Assembly (NCBI RefSeq): GCF_037076455.1
Contig: NZ_AP028679.1
Span: 2,185,501 to 2,249,500 of the forward strand
Direction of reading: 5' to 3'
Source of the DNA: Desulfoferula mesophila
Lineage (GTDB): Bacteria > Desulfobacterota > Desulfarculia > Desulfarculales > Desulfarculaceae
Length of the DNA: 64,000 nt
Positions within the stretch are counted from its first letter, which is position 1, and each line of letters opens with the position of its first letter. Both the position numbers and the translations under genes were made by a program. Under the pieces are notes generated by a model. The model was given only the letters and a program-made list of their open reading frames with translations. It ran no database searches and was not told the DNA's origin. This document shows positions 46,249 to 53,323 of this stretch, one piece after another.

Positions 46249-48270
46249 ATGATAATCCCCCAGCAGCCCGGTGCTTTGCTCAAGGCTGTTAGCCAAGACA
46301 TCACATTGGGCCAAAGCGCATCTTATTTGTCCCATAAAGGCGTTGCTGCCTTGTGCCTTCACGACGGCAAGGGCAGGGCGGTGGGTGTGTTCGTCCATCA
46401 CAATCTGGCCGAGGCGGTGGCAGCTGGCGCCGCCATGCATGCGCCGGCTAGAAACTGGGCCGGCCCGGTCGGGGAATTTCACGGCCTTACACAAGAGAAC
46501 GCCGCCAGCAAAGACCCCACGCCCGGTTTGGCCGCTTGGCCCATGGAGCGGCTGCTCTTCGACGTCCTCAATTCCATTTACAACCCGGTGTTGGCCGTGG
46601 ACAGCGCGGGCACGATTATTTTCTGCAATCCCGCCATGGCGGCGGTGGCTAACACCACGGTTGAGTATCTCACAGGGCAACGGGTGGAGAATTACGTGGC
46701 CAACACCCGCTTGCCGCGCATCATCATTACCGGACAGCGTGAGACGGTACGCCAGATCGTCATAGGTGGGCGCACCTACATTTCCAACCGCACGCCCATA
46801 AAAGACGGCGAAAGGGTCATCGGCGCACTGGCCATTTTGCAAGACATCTCCGAGCTGGCCGCAATTGCGGATAAGATGGAACGCACCAAAGACCTAACCA
46901 ACGAACTTAACGCAATAATCGAATCTTCTTTTGACGGCATCTATGTAACGGACGGTCAGGGACGCACTCTAAGGGTAAACAAGGCCTACGAGCGCATCAC
47001 CGGACTGCGGCGGGAAGAACTACTCGATCGCAACATGCACGATTTGGTGGAGGAGGGCTTTTACAACGAATCGGTCACCCTGCGGGTGCTGGAGACCCAG
47101 CGGGCCGAGTCGCTAATGCAGACCATACGCACCGGCAAGACGGTGATGGTCACCGGCACTCCCATCTGTGATACGCCCGGCAAGGTGTCGTTGGTGGTCA
47201 CCAGCGTACGCGACGTCACCGAGTTGTACAACCTGCAAGTCAAACTGGAGCGCGAAGAAAAGCTGCGCACCAAGTATGAGAGTGAGCTGGAGCTTCTGCG
47301 CCGCAACACCGAGGAAGAAAACGACATAGTGGTGCAGTCGGGCAGAATGCGGGAGGTCTACGAGTTGGCTCTGCGTTTGGCCAACGTGGACACCACCGTC
47401 TTGGTGCAAGGCGAATCCGGAGTGGGCAAGGAGGTGTTCGCCGACATCATTCACCGCAACTCTCAAAGGTGTGACGGCCCCTTGGTCAAGATAAGCTGCG
47501 CGGCCATTCCGGCGCAGCTTTTGGAGTCCGAGTTGTTCGGTTATCAGGCCGCGGCTTTCACCGGGGCCAGCAAACAGGGCAAGGTGGGCATTTTCGAGGC
47601 GGCCAAGGGTGGCACCATTTTCCTGGATGAGATCGGTGAGCTGCCCTTGGGATTGCAGGCCAAGCTGTTGAGGGTCCTGCAGGCCAAGGAAGTGATCCGG
47701 GTGGGCAGCAGCGTGGCCATGCCGGTGGACGTGCGCATCGTCGCCGCCACCAACCGCGACCTCCAGGACATGGTGCGCAGGGGACGCTACCGCCAGGACC
47801 TTTTCTTCCGCCTAAACGTGGTGCCCGTGGTAATCCCGCCTCTGCGCCGCCGCAAGGATGGCATTCCCAAGCTGGTCTATCATTTCCTCGACCAGTTCAA
47901 CCGACGCTATGGATTCAGCAAGCAGGTGGACCCCAAAGTGTTGCAGGCCCTTTACGACTACGATTGGCCGGGCAACGTTCGCGAGTTGATGAATACCATC
48001 GAGCGCATGGTGGTAACCACCCAGGGTGAAGTGATCGGCTGGGCGGACATGCCCGACTACCTTAAAAAGGCCGCCGAAGAGCCCAGCAAGGACCCCGAAG
48101 TATTGGAGGGGTCGTTGAAGGCCACCCTGGAAGCGCTTGAAAAGCAGATCCTGACCAGCGCCCTGCGCATCCACAAAAGCACCTACAAGGCCGCCCAGGC
48201 TCTGGGGGTGAACCAGTCGACTATTGTCCGCAAGATGAAACGCCTGGGGATTCGTCTCAAAGCCAAGTAG
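46249..48270 (+). CDS. Sigma-54-dependent activator (PAS-PAS-AAA+-HTH)
   Basis: 673 aa. A weakly CBS-like N-terminal segment (about 15-60) is followed by PAS domains at about 100-205 and 215-330. The AAA+ domain spans about 360-590, with Walker A GESGVGKE at 388-395 and Walker B GGTIFLDEIGE. A C-terminal TyrR/Fis-type HTH (KAAQALGVNQSTIVRKMKRLGI) ends the protein. The sigma-54 contact loop reads AAFTGA (435-440), with Ala replacing the first Gly of GAFTGA. It lies just upstream of a -24/-12 promoter and hydroxybutyrate genes, so it is almost certainly their activator, sensing a small ligand through PAS. Confidence 0.93.
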   Translation: MIIPQQPGALLKAVSQDITLGQSASYLSHKGVAALCLHDGKGRAVGVFVHHNLAEAVAAGAAMHAPARNWAGPVGEFHGLTQENAASKDPTPGLAAWPMERLLFDVLNSIYNPVLAVDSAGTIIFCNPAMAAVANTTVEYLTGQRVENYVANTRLPRIIITGQRETVRQIVIGGRTYISNRTPIKDGERVIGALAILQDISELAAIADKMERTKDLTNELNAIIESSFDGIYVTDGQGRTLRVNKAYERITGLRREELLDRNMHDLVEEGFYNESVTLRVLETQRAESLMQTIRTGKTVMVTGTPICDTPGKVSLVVTSVRDVTELYNLQVKLEREEKLRTKYESELELLRRNTEEENDIVVQSGRMREVYELALRLANVDTTVLVQGESGVGKEVFADIIHRNSQRCDGPLVKISCAAIPAQLLESELFGYQAAAFTGASKQGKVGIFEAAKGGTIFLDEIGELPLGLQAKLLRVLQAKEVIRVGSSVAMPVDVRIVAATNRDLQDMVRRGRYRQDLFFRLNVVPVVIPPLRRRKDGIPKLVYHFLDQFNRRYGFSKQVDPKVLQALYDYDWPGNVRELMNTIERMVVTTQGEVIGWADMPDYLKKAAEEPSKDPEVLEGSLKATLEALEKQILTSALRIHKSTYKAAQALGVNQSTIVRKMKRLGIRLKAK

Positions 48271-48548: not shown

Positions 48549-48565
48549 TTGGCATCCTTGTTGCT
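48549..48565 (+). promoter_or_regulatory. Sigma-54 (-24/-12) promoter
   Basis: The sequence TTGGCAT-CCTTG-TTGCT matches the YTGGCAC-N5-TTGCW consensus, with one change in the C of the -24 box; GG and GC are correctly spaced. It lies about 125 bp upstream of the dehydratase gene and just downstream of a sigma-54 activator gene. The remainder of the 418-bp gap between those genes holds no credible ORF. Confidence 0.85.
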
Positions 48566-48688: not shown

Positions 48689-50146
48689 ATGCCAATGATG
48701 ACCGGCCAACAGTACGAAGACAGCCTGCGCAAGCTCAATTTAAAAGTGTACATGTTCGGCGAAAGAGTAGAGAACGTCGTCGACAACCCTATCATCCGCC
48801 CCTCGATGGAAGCAGTTAAGCTGACCTACGACCTGGCTCAAGATCCACAGTACGAAGACTTGATGACCGCCACTTCCCACCTGAGCGGCGAAAAGATCAA
48901 CCGGTTCACCCATATTCACCAAAGCACCGACGACTTGGTGAAAAAGACCAAGATGGGCCGTCTGCTGGGTTCCCTGACCGGCTGCTGCTTCCAGCGCTGC
49001 GTTGGTATGGACGCCGTCAACGCCCTGTCCATCGTCACTTATGACATCGACCAAAAATTCGGCACGGAATACAACAAGAGATTTCTGACCTATCTGCAAT
49101 ATGTGCAGGAAAACGACTTCACCTGCGACGGGGCCATGACCGACCCCAAGGGCGACCGCTCCCTGCCCCCCAGCAAGCAGCCGGACCCCGACGCCTTCAT
49201 GCATGTGGTGGAAGAGCGCGACGACGGCATAGTGGTGAGCGGGGCCAAGGCCCACCAAACCGGCGCCGTTAACTCTCACGAAATCATCATCATGCCCACC
49301 ATCAGCATGCGCGAGGAAGACAAGGACTGGGCCATATCCTTTGCCCTGCCCGCCGATGCCGAGGGCATCACCTACATCATGGGCCGCCAAAGCTGCGACA
49401 CCCGCAAGCTGGAAGAGGGCACCATGGACCGGGGCAACGGGATTTACGGCGGCCACGAGTCCCTCGTGGTTTTCGACAACGTGTTCGTGCCCTGGGACCG
49501 GGTGTTCATGTTCAAGGAGTGGGAGTTCGCCGGGCGCCTGGTGGAGCATTTCGCTTCTTACCACCGCCAAAGCTACGCCTGCAAGGCGGGCGTGGGCGAC
49601 GTGTTGATCGGCGCGGCCCAAACTGCGGCCCAATACAACGGCGTGGCCAAGGCTTCGCACGTCAAGGACAAGCTCATCGAGATGAACCATCTCAACGAGA
49701 CCTTGTTCTGCGGTTCCGTAGCCTGCGCGGCCCAGGGCGGCAAGGAGCCCAGCGGGACCTATCTAGTGGACACCCTGTTGGCCAACGTATGCAAGCAGAA
49801 CGTGACCCGCTTCCCCTATGAGATCGCCCGCCTGGCCCAGGACATCGCCGGCGGCCTTATGGTGACCATGCCTTCGGAGGCCGACCTGCGCTCGCCCGAA
49901 GTTGGCAAGTGGGTGAACAAGTACTTCAAGGCCAACCCCGAGGTCTCCACCGAAAACCGCATGCGCATCCTGCGACTTATCGAAAACCTCACCCTGGGCA
50001 CCGCCGCGGTCGGCTACCTAACCGAGTCCATGCACGGCGCGGGCTCTCCCCAGGCCCAGCGCATCATGATCGCCCGCCAGGTGAACATGGCCCAAAAGCA
50101 GAAGGTGGCCAAGAAGCTGGCCGGCATCGAGGAGGAGCAGGCGTAG
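48689..50146 (+). CDS. abfD: 4-hydroxybutyryl-CoA dehydratase / vinylacetyl-CoA isomerase-like protein
   Basis: 485 aa, HpaB-like flavoprotein fold. AbfD uses FAD and a [4Fe-4S] cluster to dehydrate 4-hydroxybutyryl-CoA to crotonyl-CoA. Cluster-ligand candidates are C100 and C104 (CFQRC, a CxxxC as in AbfD Cys99/Cys103), H292 and C298 (HRQSYAC). E257 sits at the numbered position of the catalytic Glu. In the Clostridium enzyme the pair is His292/Cys299, so the spacing here is one residue shorter. The ATG lies after GGAGG. It is the first gene of a sigma-54 operon with a CoA-transferase, as expected for 4-hydroxybutyrate use. Confidence 0.82.
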   Translation: MPMMTGQQYEDSLRKLNLKVYMFGERVENVVDNPIIRPSMEAVKLTYDLAQDPQYEDLMTATSHLSGEKINRFTHIHQSTDDLVKKTKMGRLLGSLTGCCFQRCVGMDAVNALSIVTYDIDQKFGTEYNKRFLTYLQYVQENDFTCDGAMTDPKGDRSLPPSKQPDPDAFMHVVEERDDGIVVSGAKAHQTGAVNSHEIIIMPTISMREEDKDWAISFALPADAEGITYIMGRQSCDTRKLEEGTMDRGNGIYGGHESLVVFDNVFVPWDRVFMFKEWEFAGRLVEHFASYHRQSYACKAGVGDVLIGAAQTAAQYNGVAKASHVKDKLIEMNHLNETLFCGSVACAAQGGKEPSGTYLVDTLLANVCKQNVTRFPYEIARLAQDIAGGLMVTMPSEADLRSPEVGKWVNKYFKANPEVSTENRMRILRLIENLTLGTAAVGYLTESMHGAGSPQAQRIMIARQVNMAQKQKVAKKLAGIEEEQA

Positions 50147-50439
50147 TGTTTTTGGGCCTGAAGTTTTGCGGCGGCTGTTCGCCCGACTACGACCGGAGCG
50201 AGCAAGTCTACCGCCTGGCCCAAGTACTGGACGGATTGGTCGAACTGGTCTCGCACGAGGATCCAAGAGCGGAGCGCGTTCTGGTGGTCATGGGATGCAA
50301 AAACGCCTGCGCCGATACCCAGCCCCTTTTGGGCCGCGAGCTGATCTTGGTCCATGGAGAGGATGAGTTCGACCAAGCAATAAAGAGACTGCGCGCAGTC
50401 GCCAAAGGAGCCAAGAATGGATTGGCAAGAGGTATATAG
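50146..50439 (+). CDS. Small four-cysteine protein (CGGC motif) of unknown function
   Basis: 97 aa, GTG start overlapping the abfD stop by 1 bp with GGAGGAG 8 bp upstream, so strongly coupled. C8 and C11 are in KFCGGCSPDYDR, and C51 and C55 in VMGCKNACAD; together they could hold an Fe-S cluster or a redox disulfide. No signal peptide. Its end overlaps the CoA-transferase start by 23 bp. Position between dehydratase and transferase suggests a maturation or electron-transfer role for the dehydratase (inference). I do not recognise a characterised family. Confidence 0.78.
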   Translation: MFLGLKFCGGCSPDYDRSEQVYRLAQVLDGLVELVSHEDPRAERVLVVMGCKNACADTQPLLGRELILVHGEDEFDQAIKRLRAVAKGAKNGLARGI

Positions 50440-51805
50440 GGACAAACTGGTCGATGCCGATGAAGCGGTCAGCCGGATCTCCTCGGGGGACCGGGTGGTG
50501 GTGGGCCATGCCTGCGGCTCGCCGGAGACCTTGCTTCGAGCGATGGTGGACAACAAGGAGCGCTATCACAACGTAGAGTTGGTCCACATGGTCTCCATGG
50601 GCAAGGCCGACTATTGCGAGATTGAAAACAGCCCGCACTTTTTCCATAACTCGCTGTTCGTGGGCGGTACCACCCGCCAGGCGGTGGGCGGCGGCTGGGG
50701 GGTTTTCACCCCCTGCCACTTCAGCCAGATTCCAAATTTGTTCACCCAGGGCATCTTGCCGGTGGACGTGACCCTGTGCATGCTTTCCCCGCCCGACGAG
50801 CATGGCTACTGCTCCTTCGGGGTGTCGGTGGACTACACCAAGCCGGCGGCGGAGAGTTCGCGCCTGGTCATCGCCGAGATCAGCCACCACATGCCCCGCA
50901 CCTTGGGGGACTCCTTCATTCACATCAAGGATATTGACTGCATCGTGGCCACGGACGCGGAGCTGATTTCTCTGCCCCAAGCCAAGATAACCCCCACCGA
51001 CGAAGCCATCGGAGGCAACTGCGCCGACTTGATCCGCGACGGCGACTGCCTGCAACTGGGCATCGGGGCGGTGCCCGACTCCATCTTGGGTTTCTTGAGA
51101 GACAAGAAGGATCTAGGTATCCACACCGAGATGTTCTCCGACGGCGTGGTGGATCTGGTGAATTCGGGCAACGTTACCTGCGCCCGCAAGAACCTGCACA
51201 AGAACAAGATGGTGGCCACCTTTTTCATGGGCACCGAAAAGCTCTACAAGTTCCTGCACAACAACCCCATGGTGGCCATGTTCTCGGTGGACTACACCAA
51301 CGACCCCCGGGTAGTGGCCCAGAACGACAACATGGTATCGGTGAACTCCGCCCTGCAGGTGGATTTTGCCGGGCAGGTCGTTTCCGACAGCATAGGCTTC
51401 CGCCAATACAGCGGGCCGGGGGGGCAGGCCGACTTCGTGCGCGGCGCCAGCTGGTCCCGGGGCGGCCGTTCCATCCTGGCCTTCCACTCCACCGCGGCCA
51501 GGGGGGCCATCTCCCGCATAGTGCCAGCCATCGACCAGGGGGCCTCAGTAACCACCCTACGCACTGACGTGCATTACATCGTCACCGAGTATGGCGTCGC
51601 CGACTTAAGGGGCAAGTCGGTATCCGAGCGGGCCAAGAGCCTCATCGGCATAGCCCATCCTGATTTTCGCTCCGACCTGCGGCGCGAGTTTGAAAATATT
51701 TACCTGAAGGACAACCCGCTGCTCAGGCCCATGTCCGAAGAGCGGCGCAAAGCATTCTGGCCTCACGAAATGGATGGAGCTTATCTGCAACAGTTGCTTG
51801 GATGA
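50417..51805 (+). CDS. 4-hydroxybutyrate CoA-transferase-like protein
   Basis: 462 aa, acetyl-CoA hydrolase/transferase family. The catalytic glutamate is in GIHTEMFSDG, and the CoA-binding FRQYSGPGGQADFVRG and ITRLPxG-like C-terminal ADLRGKSVSERA are present. It would transfer CoA from an acyl-CoA to 4-hydroxybutyrate, giving the substrate of the upstream dehydratase. ATG with AAAGGAG upstream. Other short hydroxyacids or acetate are possible substrates, but the neighbour argues for 4-hydroxybutyrate. Confidence 0.88.
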   Translation: MDWQEVYRDKLVDADEAVSRISSGDRVVVGHACGSPETLLRAMVDNKERYHNVELVHMVSMGKADYCEIENSPHFFHNSLFVGGTTRQAVGGGWGVFTPCHFSQIPNLFTQGILPVDVTLCMLSPPDEHGYCSFGVSVDYTKPAAESSRLVIAEISHHMPRTLGDSFIHIKDIDCIVATDAELISLPQAKITPTDEAIGGNCADLIRDGDCLQLGIGAVPDSILGFLRDKKDLGIHTEMFSDGVVDLVNSGNVTCARKNLHKNKMVATFFMGTEKLYKFLHNNPMVAMFSVDYTNDPRVVAQNDNMVSVNSALQVDFAGQVVSDSIGFRQYSGPGGQADFVRGASWSRGGRSILAFHSTAARGAISRIVPAIDQGASVTTLRTDVHYIVTEYGVADLRGKSVSERAKSLIGIAHPDFRSDLRREFENIYLKDNPLLRPMSEERRKAFWPHEMDGAYLQQLLG

Positions 51806-51886: not shown

Positions 51887-53323
51887 ATGATCCGTCGGGA
51901 ACGGGAATACGGCAAAATTCAGCCGGGAATCAAGATCGGTCAGTTATACCTGCGGTTGCCCTTCGTTCACTACAGATTCGAGTTCCCGGATTACCTGCAA
52001 GGGCTTTTGATGTGCACGGTTTGCTTGGCCATCATTCCCGTGCTTACTGCCAAACTTGGCATGTCCTTTGAAGTTGCCCTGGCCATCGTCATTTTAAACG
52101 GCACCCTTTACCTGACCCACGTCATGTTCGGCGATCCGGTGGTGCCGGGCTGGGTTACCCCGGCCATACCCCTGCTCATCGCATATGTGGAGGCCTTTGC
52201 CCCAGGCGTAGAGCGCATGCAGGCGCTCATCGCCTTTGAGCTGACCTTCGGCGTGTTCACCATGTTGATAGGCTTCTCGGGGCTGGCCAAGAGGATTATC
52301 AACCTGGTGCCCAACGCGGTGCAGTCGGCCATTCTACTGGGCGCGGGCATCGCGGCGGCCATGCTGGTGTTCAAACCTGGAGAGGGACTGAAGAGCTTCG
52401 ACAGCTTCCCCTGGACCGTCATCATCTGCGTGGGCCTTGCCTTTTACCTGTTGTTCTCCGAGCATTTCAAGCGCATCCGGCGCAAGAACAAGGCCCTGCG
52501 CTATCTGGCCAACCTGGGCATGATGCCCGCCTTGTTCCTGGCCATCTTCGTGGGCCCTCTAACCGGCGAGTTGGCCTGGCCCACCTATGACGGTGCTTTT
52601 TTCACCAGCCCGGACTTTGTGGACCTGTTCAAGAACTTCACGGTCATGGGGGCCATACCTTTTCCGCCGGCCCATATGTTCATCTCCGGCTTGCCCATGG
52701 TCATCAGCGCCTACATCGTGGTGTTCGGCGATGTGATCCAGTCCCAGGCCCTGTTGGAGGACGCCCAGAAGTATCGTCCCGACGAGGACGTGGACTACAA
52801 CCCCAACCGTTCGCACATCATCTTCGGCGGCCGCAACATCATCATGAGCATCCTGGGCCCCGATATCTCCATGTGCGGCCCCCTGTGGGCGGCCATGCAG
52901 GTGGTGGTTTGCGAGCGCTATAAGCACGGCCCCGCGGCCATGGAATCGGTTAACGGCGGCGCCGGCTCCTTCAGATTCGGCACCTGGACGGGCTATTTCA
53001 TAGCCCCCATCGTGGAGTCGGTGCGGCCGATACTCGGGGTGGGCTTGGCCTCCACCATGCTGATCCAGAGCTACGTCAGCGTGAGGGTGGGCATCTTGAA
53101 ATCCCGCTCCTTCAACGACCTGGGCATAGCCGGGGTGGCCGGAGCCATCGTGGCCACCCGTGGCGCGGCCTGGGGCTTGGGCGCGGCCATCGCGCTAACC
53201 CTGCTGGTGTATCTGGGCAGCAAGAAGGAGAACGTCTATATGCGCGAGGAGCCGGTGTTCCCCTGCAACTCGCCCGAGAAAATCGCCAGGGAAATCGAAG
53301 AAGCGCAGAAGGAAGCGCAATAG
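51887..53323 (+). CDS. Multi-spanning permease, NCS2/SulP-like
   Basis: 478 aa with about 11-13 hydrophobic segments and no signal peptide. The layout resembles xanthine/uracil-type (NCS2) or related permeases, with LVPNAVQSAILLGAGIAAAM like the QSAIxxG motif of that superfamily and FGDPVVPGWVTPAIP early. It sits 81 bp after the CoA-transferase gene, in the same direction, behind GGGAGGA. Context makes it the uptake system for the hydroxyacid used by this operon (inference); a purine or other substrate cannot be excluded. Confidence 0.75.
   Translation: MIRREREYGKIQPGIKIGQLYLRLPFVHYRFEFPDYLQGLLMCTVCLAIIPVLTAKLGMSFEVALAIVILNGTLYLTHVMFGDPVVPGWVTPAIPLLIAYVEAFAPGVERMQALIAFELTFGVFTMLIGFSGLAKRIINLVPNAVQSAILLGAGIAAAMLVFKPGEGLKSFDSFPWTVIICVGLAFYLLFSEHFKRIRRKNKALRYLANLGMMPALFLAIFVGPLTGELAWPTYDGAFFTSPDFVDLFKNFTVMGAIPFPPAHMFISGLPMVISAYIVVFGDVIQSQALLEDAQKYRPDEDVDYNPNRSHIIFGGRNIIMSILGPDISMCGPLWAAMQVVVCERYKHGPAAMESVNGGAGSFRFGTWTGYFIAPIVESVRPILGVGLASTMLIQSYVSVRVGILKSRSFNDLGIAGVAGAIVATRGAAWGLGAAIALTLLVYLGSKKENVYMREEPVFPCNSPEKIAREIEEAQKEAQ

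Follow-up and report, generated by a model that had tools for sequence, protein, structure and literature searches.

AbfD-type dehydratases catalyse a hard radical dehydration in the fermentation of GABA, succinate and 4-hydroxybutyrate, and the locus studied here raises the question of what a short four-cysteine protein encoded between such a dehydratase and a CoA-transferase may be doing there. The locus lies in a 64,000-nucleotide stretch of the Desulfoferula mesophila genome, referred to below as the window. A search of the open PMC literature turned up no maturation or repair factor dedicated to these dehydratases. A sequence-only reading of the window had proposed the short protein as an accessory factor of these enzymes, and the features on which the present analysis rests are the following.

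46249-48270, + strand: PAS/sigma-54 activator (enhancer-binding protein), with PF00158 and PAS domains
48549-48565, + strand: sigma-54 promoter-like site TTGGCATCCTTGTTGCT, an exact match to the published Clostridiales consensus
48689-50146, + strand: AbfD-type dehydratase of the HpaB family, 485 aa, with PF11794 and PF03241 and a PDB match to 1u8v
50129-50137, + strand: ribosome-binding site GAGGAGGAG, read from the sequence, 8 nt 5' of the GTG of the CGGC gene
50146-50439, + strand: gene of the 97-aa CGGC/CxxxC protein, GTG start, from the ORF list and the 91-sequence family alignment
50167-50178, + strand: codons C8-G9-G10-C11 (CGGC motif), invariant in the alignment
50194-50196, + strand: codon R17 (C11-x5-R17), invariant in the alignment
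50293-50310, + strand: codons G50-C51-x3-C55 (GCxxxC motif), invariant in the alignment
50417-51805, + strand: CoA-transferase, 462 aa, with PF02550 and PF13336, and TIGR03948 below its cut-off
51887-53323, + strand: transporter-like protein, 478 aa, of an unmodelled family that recurs in other abfD loci

The 97-aa frame is a real gene. As the sequence-only reading had described, it follows a strong ribosome site and overlaps both neighbours, sharing one base of its GTG with the dehydratase stop TAG (50144-50146) and 23 nt of its 3' end with the CoA-transferase, whose ATG (50417) is preceded at 6 nt by AGGAG (50406-50410). Comparison with an 83%-identical homologue from a close relative (L002) gave a dN of ~0.085 and a dS of ~0.486 over 88 codons, so the frame evolves as a protein, and this low ratio, together with the existence of homologues and of invariant cysteines, makes the ORF more than a chance occurrence.

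The surrounding operon appears to be under sigma-54 control. With at most one mismatch allowed, the consensus TTGGCATNNNNNTTGCT, taken from PMC6615313, has a single occurrence in the window, which is exact and lies 123 nt 5' of the abfD ATG; at the same stringency shuffled sequences gave a chance mean of 0.26, with a match in 20 of 100 shuffles. Since this site is accompanied by an activator gene just 5' of the operon, it is likely that abfD, the CGGC gene, the CoA-transferase and the transporter genes form one sigma-54 operon. The product of the last of these genes had no credible Pfam or NCBIfam match, and its relatives were seen in 11 of 80 CGGC loci and in the Fusobacterium abfD operon, which makes it a candidate for an unmodelled family of 4-hydroxybutyrate or crotonate transporters.

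The short protein belongs to a CGGC family for which the Pfam and NCBIfam libraries searched have no curated model. No model matched the window protein at E<=1, and 15 family members fell into no Pfam or NCBIfam family, giving only stray matches of one member each to FNIP_C, PNMA_N, DGC and RepSA. No credible sequence relative was found in the PDB by phmmer with the window protein or with a 15-sequence profile; two designed proteins that matched the window protein (E 8.5e-4 and 0.67) were taken as chance. Homologues are present in 15 of the 60 genomes of the relatives set, own genome counted, and a profile search of the genome-contig collection returned 222 stretches with relatives, of which the best 80, used for the linkage analysis, are mostly from deltaproteobacterial MAGs and also include Spirochaetes and 12 Firmicutes loci. 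No tblastn relative of the window protein was present in the plasmid collection at E<=0.01, and the family profile recovered a divergent copy there in a Fusobacterium record. The 91 aligned members are as little as 20% identical to the window protein, and eight residues do not vary in any of them (C8, G9, G10, C11, R17, G50, C51 and C55), while K6 is nearly invariant; the CxxC (C8-C11) and CxxxC (C51-C55) motifs noticed from the single sequence are therefore features of the whole family, all four cysteines included.

The neighbours are likewise what they had been taken for. In addition to the CoA-transferase domains listed above, the window dehydratase has as its best PDB match 1u8v, the gamma-aminobutyrate metabolism dehydratase/isomerase (723 bits, E 1.2e-216, residues 3-480), and thus resembles a characterised AbfD over its full length. 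Alignment places C100, C104, H292 and C298 at the Fe-S ligand positions of AbfD, which we take to be the ligands of its [4Fe-4S] cluster. The H-x5-C spacing of the last two (H292-C298, 49562-49582) is one residue shorter than the H-x6-C of 1u8v, and is typical of the clade that contains the window AbfD.

The genetic association between the CGGC gene and the dehydratase is strong. With the window dehydratase as query, an HpaB/AbfD-type gene was found in 65 of the best 80 of the 222 loci, and in 9 of the 15 loci lacking one the sequence extends less than 2.5 kb from the CGGC gene in at least one direction. In a phylum sample of 297 genomes, where HpaB was identified by PF03241, the CGGC family is present in 52 genomes (56 genes) and HpaB in 106, including all 52 positives. 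Within 5 kb of HpaB lie 42 of the 56 CGGC genes, a count composed of 35 links from coordinate tables and 7 among 20 further genes checked individually, one of the seven (G341) being next to a broken or partial HpaB; in G247 the distance is 13 kb. A second sample comprised 245 genomes from the class of Clostridium sp. 12(A) (L085), presumably Clostridia. Here the CGGC family occurs in 9 genomes (11 genes) and HpaB in 11 (14 genes), among them all 9 positives, and every one of the 11 CGGC genes is within 5 kb of HpaB, two genomes having two separate pairs each. Twelve of these 14 HpaB genes are strong matches (E<=4e-65), and the partner stands beside all of them except that of G578. Hypergeometric probabilities of co-occurrence were 1.5e-28 (phylum) and 7e-15 (Clostridia), values that carry no correction for kinship and concern counts of positive genomes that were compared by eye. 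A further 8 and 13 genomes reached via loci all possess HpaB; the 13 are the genomes of unlinked CGGC genes, and 10 of them encode one or more HpaB proteins with the Fe-S ligands, while no CCHC-type HpaB was seen among those assessed in G602, G607 and G609, a partial HpaB of the last being left out. The sequence-only reading had named homologues mostly unlinked to abfD as the outcome that would speak against it, and its suggested check of homologues for co-occurrence with abfD gave the opposite.

The identity of the partner is broader than had been proposed. A set of 147 non-redundant HpaB proteins, in which linked genes are enriched as many loci were picked via the CGGC gene, and in which short loci can mask a link, includes 143 with the CCHC ligand set and 4 without. 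The CGGC-linked dehydratases number 92, the linked HpaB genes of L309 and L316 standing outside this ligand tally, and all 92 have the CCHC set; none of the ligand-less proteins is linked, although with just four of them exclusivity is weakly tested. In a subset picked by HpaB itself (82 genes in 80 regions taken from the higher-ranking PF03241 matches, L117-L196), 27 genes are linked to a CGGC gene, namely 11 of 19 in the window-like clade, 8 of 19 canonical AbfD-like genes, 8 of 40 with other CCHC forms and 0 of 4 ligand-less ones. A restriction to canonical AbfD is ruled out by the pairing of related CCHC HpaB clades, and the CGGC protein is partnered more widely with those members of the HpaB/AbfD family that bear the Fe-S ligands. 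The proposal of an abfD partner thus stands as regards linkage and is widened as regards the enzyme, with a minority of members in other acyl-CoA operons. That the CGGC protein is an accessory factor of AbfD/HpaB-type Fe-S dehydratases is well supported.

A further component appears in part of the tree. The gene order in Fusobacterium vincentii is abfD, NifU-like, CoA-transferase, a transporter resembling that of the window, and the divergent CGGC gene (the record in question, L243 or NZ_CP084075.1, holds 2.1 Mb with the abfD operon and is labelled a plasmid, its size suggesting a chromosome). A profile seeded with this Fusobacterium NifU-like protein found relatives in 9 of the 12 Firmicutes contig-scan loci and had no match in the remaining 68 loci of that scan. 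In the Clostridia sample, each of the 7 HpaB genes scoring at least 720 bits has a NifU-like gene close to abfD or to the CGGC gene. All six NifU-like proteins scanned contain PF01106 (E 1e-16 to 2e-24). This companion in Firmicutes and Fusobacterium strengthens the link of the CGGC protein to iron.

Published gene lists contain possible further members. Table 1 of PMC6615313 prints an operon 'abfD-nifU-hyp-ach-golB' in the XanR regulon, with 'hyp' appearing there without a stated function; its position in the operon is the same as in the Clostridia CGGC loci, and on this analogy it is very likely a member of the CGGC family. An iron-regulation study, PMC6311696, lists C. difficile CD630_23400 between abfD and cat2, with the annotation 'Hypothetical protein'. 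By locus-tag order it occupies the same slot between dehydratase and CoA-transferase as in the window, and could be the NifU-like protein, the CGGC protein or neither.

Structure prediction suggests how the four cysteines could come together. AlphaFold models of the window protein (pLDDT 79.1) and of the relative L056 (pLDDT 87.6, pTM 0.77) both run strand, CGGC loop, helix, strand, strand, GCxxxC loop, strand, helix, the cysteine loops of the L056 model following strands 1 (CGGC) and 3 (GCxxxC). Foldseek and VIA searches of the PDB with the two models gave nothing at E<=0.001 or Z>=8, and a second look turned up NAD kinase 5eji (Z 7.1, rmsd 3.5, 80 aligned) and mannitol PTS IIB 1vkr (Z 6.7, rmsd 2.8, 79 aligned), although all fold Z values are below 8 and may reflect a common arrangement, which is too little to assign the protein to a fold family. 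No thioredoxin-like [2Fe-2S] ferredoxin was among the fold matches listed for the two models. A single four-cysteine site is plausible, since in the Rossmann-like arrangement that the second-look matches suggest both loops would share the same sheet edge.

These observations are combined in the following proposal. The CGGC protein would be a dedicated accessory factor of [4Fe-4S]/FAD AbfD/HpaB-type dehydratases, in which the CGGC pair after strand 1 and the GCxxxC pair after strand 3 would form one four-cysteine site on a small Rossmann-like alpha/beta domain. In Firmicutes and Fusobacterium this site may be supplied with iron or an Fe-S cluster by the NifU-like scaffold encoded at the locus, and in Desulfobacterota a general scaffold may be the cluster source; the cluster would then be passed to, or restored in, the three-Cys/one-His site of the dehydratase through direct contact between the two proteins. 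Coupled translation with abfD and the CoA-transferase gene could match the supply of the CGGC protein to that of the enzyme. Two properties expected of an Fe-S carrier are seen, namely conserved cysteines that could hold a cluster (C8, C11, C51, C55) and a genetic association with both an Fe-S client and assembly genes, the latter being NifU-like genes in Firmicutes and Fusobacterium only. We consider the chances about even that the protein serves the dehydratase specifically, as a factor that carries, inserts or repairs its [4Fe-4S] cluster. It is more tentatively suggested that the unmodelled family, alone or with the NifU-like scaffold of the operon, constitutes a client-specific delivery and repair system for the clusters of [4Fe-4S]/FAD radical acyl-CoA dehydratases of anaerobes.

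Many loci depart from the simple pairing. In the phylum sample 14 of the 56 CGGC genes have no HpaB within 5 kb, and for 51 of the 143 dehydratases with the CCHC set the available sequence contains no CGGC gene inside the same distance. The window genome has a single CGGC gene that was found and two other HpaB genes (L153, L154), both of the CCHC type and without a CGGC neighbour. No CGGC-family gene was found in five genomes with a window-like AbfD, and among the four AbfD records of the plasmid collection a family match was present in Fusobacterium and absent from Cetobacterium, Bradyrhizobium and Sphingomonas, which are part-genomes. Other CGGC genes are found beside a 3-hydroxyacyl-CoA dehydrogenase and a B12-dependent acyl-CoA mutase (L300, L302, L303, L305), beside a 3-hydroxyacyl-CoA dehydrogenase (L306), or beside a crotonase and an acyl-CoA synthetase (L029, L041, L050), the neighbour enzymes being confirmed by Pfam for L303, L306 and L041. 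By eye, the Desulfobacterota locus L061 also has a member in or beside a B12-dependent acyl-CoA mutase operon. These mutase/dehydrogenase and crotonase/synthetase neighbours are enzymes without Fe-S clusters. In addition, the CGGC domain is fused to a MaoC-type hydratase (L070, L085) and to SnoaL-like domains (L081, L095), and at the end of a contig it is in frame with a CoA-transferase (L088). In the family tree, which is based on a short alignment with few columns and unsettled bootstrap and allows coarse statements only, the locus labels cluster (35 changes versus 73.8 in shuffles), with most unlinked members scattered among dehydratase-linked branches and one mutase-linked group apart. The mutase and crotonase contexts rule out that the CGGC protein is exclusive to HpaB loci. 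What speaks most against a pure Fe-S role is this set of non-HpaB contexts, which leave room for a docking or general acyl-CoA role. Recombinant AbfD is active when made in E. coli, and the factor is for this reason not an absolute requirement.

These contexts, and the fusions to MaoC-type, SnoaL-like and CoA-transferase partners, would find an explanation if the protein were a docking subunit, binding a metal such as zinc and joining short-chain acyl-CoA enzymes of which AbfD is the commonest. HpaB is nevertheless present in every positive genome of the samples, where the genome-wide survey covered HpaB alone among these enzymes; the NifU-like partner would be left unexplained, and the CoA-transferase fusion stops at a contig end. 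We regard this alternative as improbable. A role as a small redox protein, of Fe-S or dithiol type, that moves electrons to or from AbfD and thereby sets the FAD/cluster state for the radical mechanism or reactivates oxidised enzyme, also accords with the four invariant cysteines in CxxC and CxxxC spacing, with the Fe-S ligand set in all 92 linked dehydratases and with the small alpha/beta domain of the models. It is unlikely all the same, as the NifU-like partner indicates cluster supply, no sequence match to ferredoxin or thioredoxin families was obtained in Pfam, NCBIfam or the PDB, and the overall AbfD reaction is, according to PMC8364193, redox-neutral.

The invariant C11 and R17 admit another reading. 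They stand six apart, after strand 1 and at the start of helix 1, and the closeness of the fold to PTS IIB 1vkr fits with a thiol enzyme of low-molecular-weight phosphatase, arsenate reductase or PTS IIB-like type, whose loop signature is presumably C-x5-R, with C51/C55 as a redox relay. The loop usually contains Pro (in at least 90% of the 15 sequences and a majority of the 91), and Asp or Glu precedes the Arg, which together would make a poor oxyanion cradle; C8 has no place in such a scheme, and a Z value below 8 may come from a common arrangement. This reading is very improbable. Cluster delivery or repair remains the preferred one, and such a partner, encoded with the dehydratase in Desulfobacterota, Firmicutes and Fusobacterium, would make cluster assembly in the AbfD class directly testable. 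To our knowledge, all AbfD biochemistry so far has been carried out without the CGGC protein, which might raise the activity of recombinant AbfD in pathways to butyrate or butanediol. Anaerobes of gut and sediment carry it as a conserved hypothetical gene, for which a testable function is now proposed.

Among known families, the tests made did not place the window family within NifU, DGC or the 'CGGC domain' (PF08821). The last of these has two occurrences in the window genome, matched none of 15 members at E<=0.1 and has just the motif letters in common. The DGC domain (PF08859) shares the GCxxxC motif, over which the Fusobacterium member reached E 2.2e-4 and 21.7 bits against a cut-off of 27 bits, whereas the lead among 15 members was one match at E 0.079 and the window protein had no match. 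The CGGC motif of the window family is absent from the 14 DGC relatives listed, and kinship found no support in hhalign, which gave a profile-profile probability of 6.9% over 33 columns. We know of no small Rossmann-like four-cysteine domain among Fe-S carriers. The closest functional parallel is offered by the NifU C-terminal/Nfu proteins, small cysteine proteins that carry clusters and are encoded, as PF01106 proteins, near the CGGC protein in the abfD loci of Firmicutes and Fusobacterium. PF01106 itself had no match to the CGGC protein at E<=1 (window) or E<=0.1 (15 members), and the two differ in their cysteines, Nfu having one CxxC and the CGGC protein four invariant residues.
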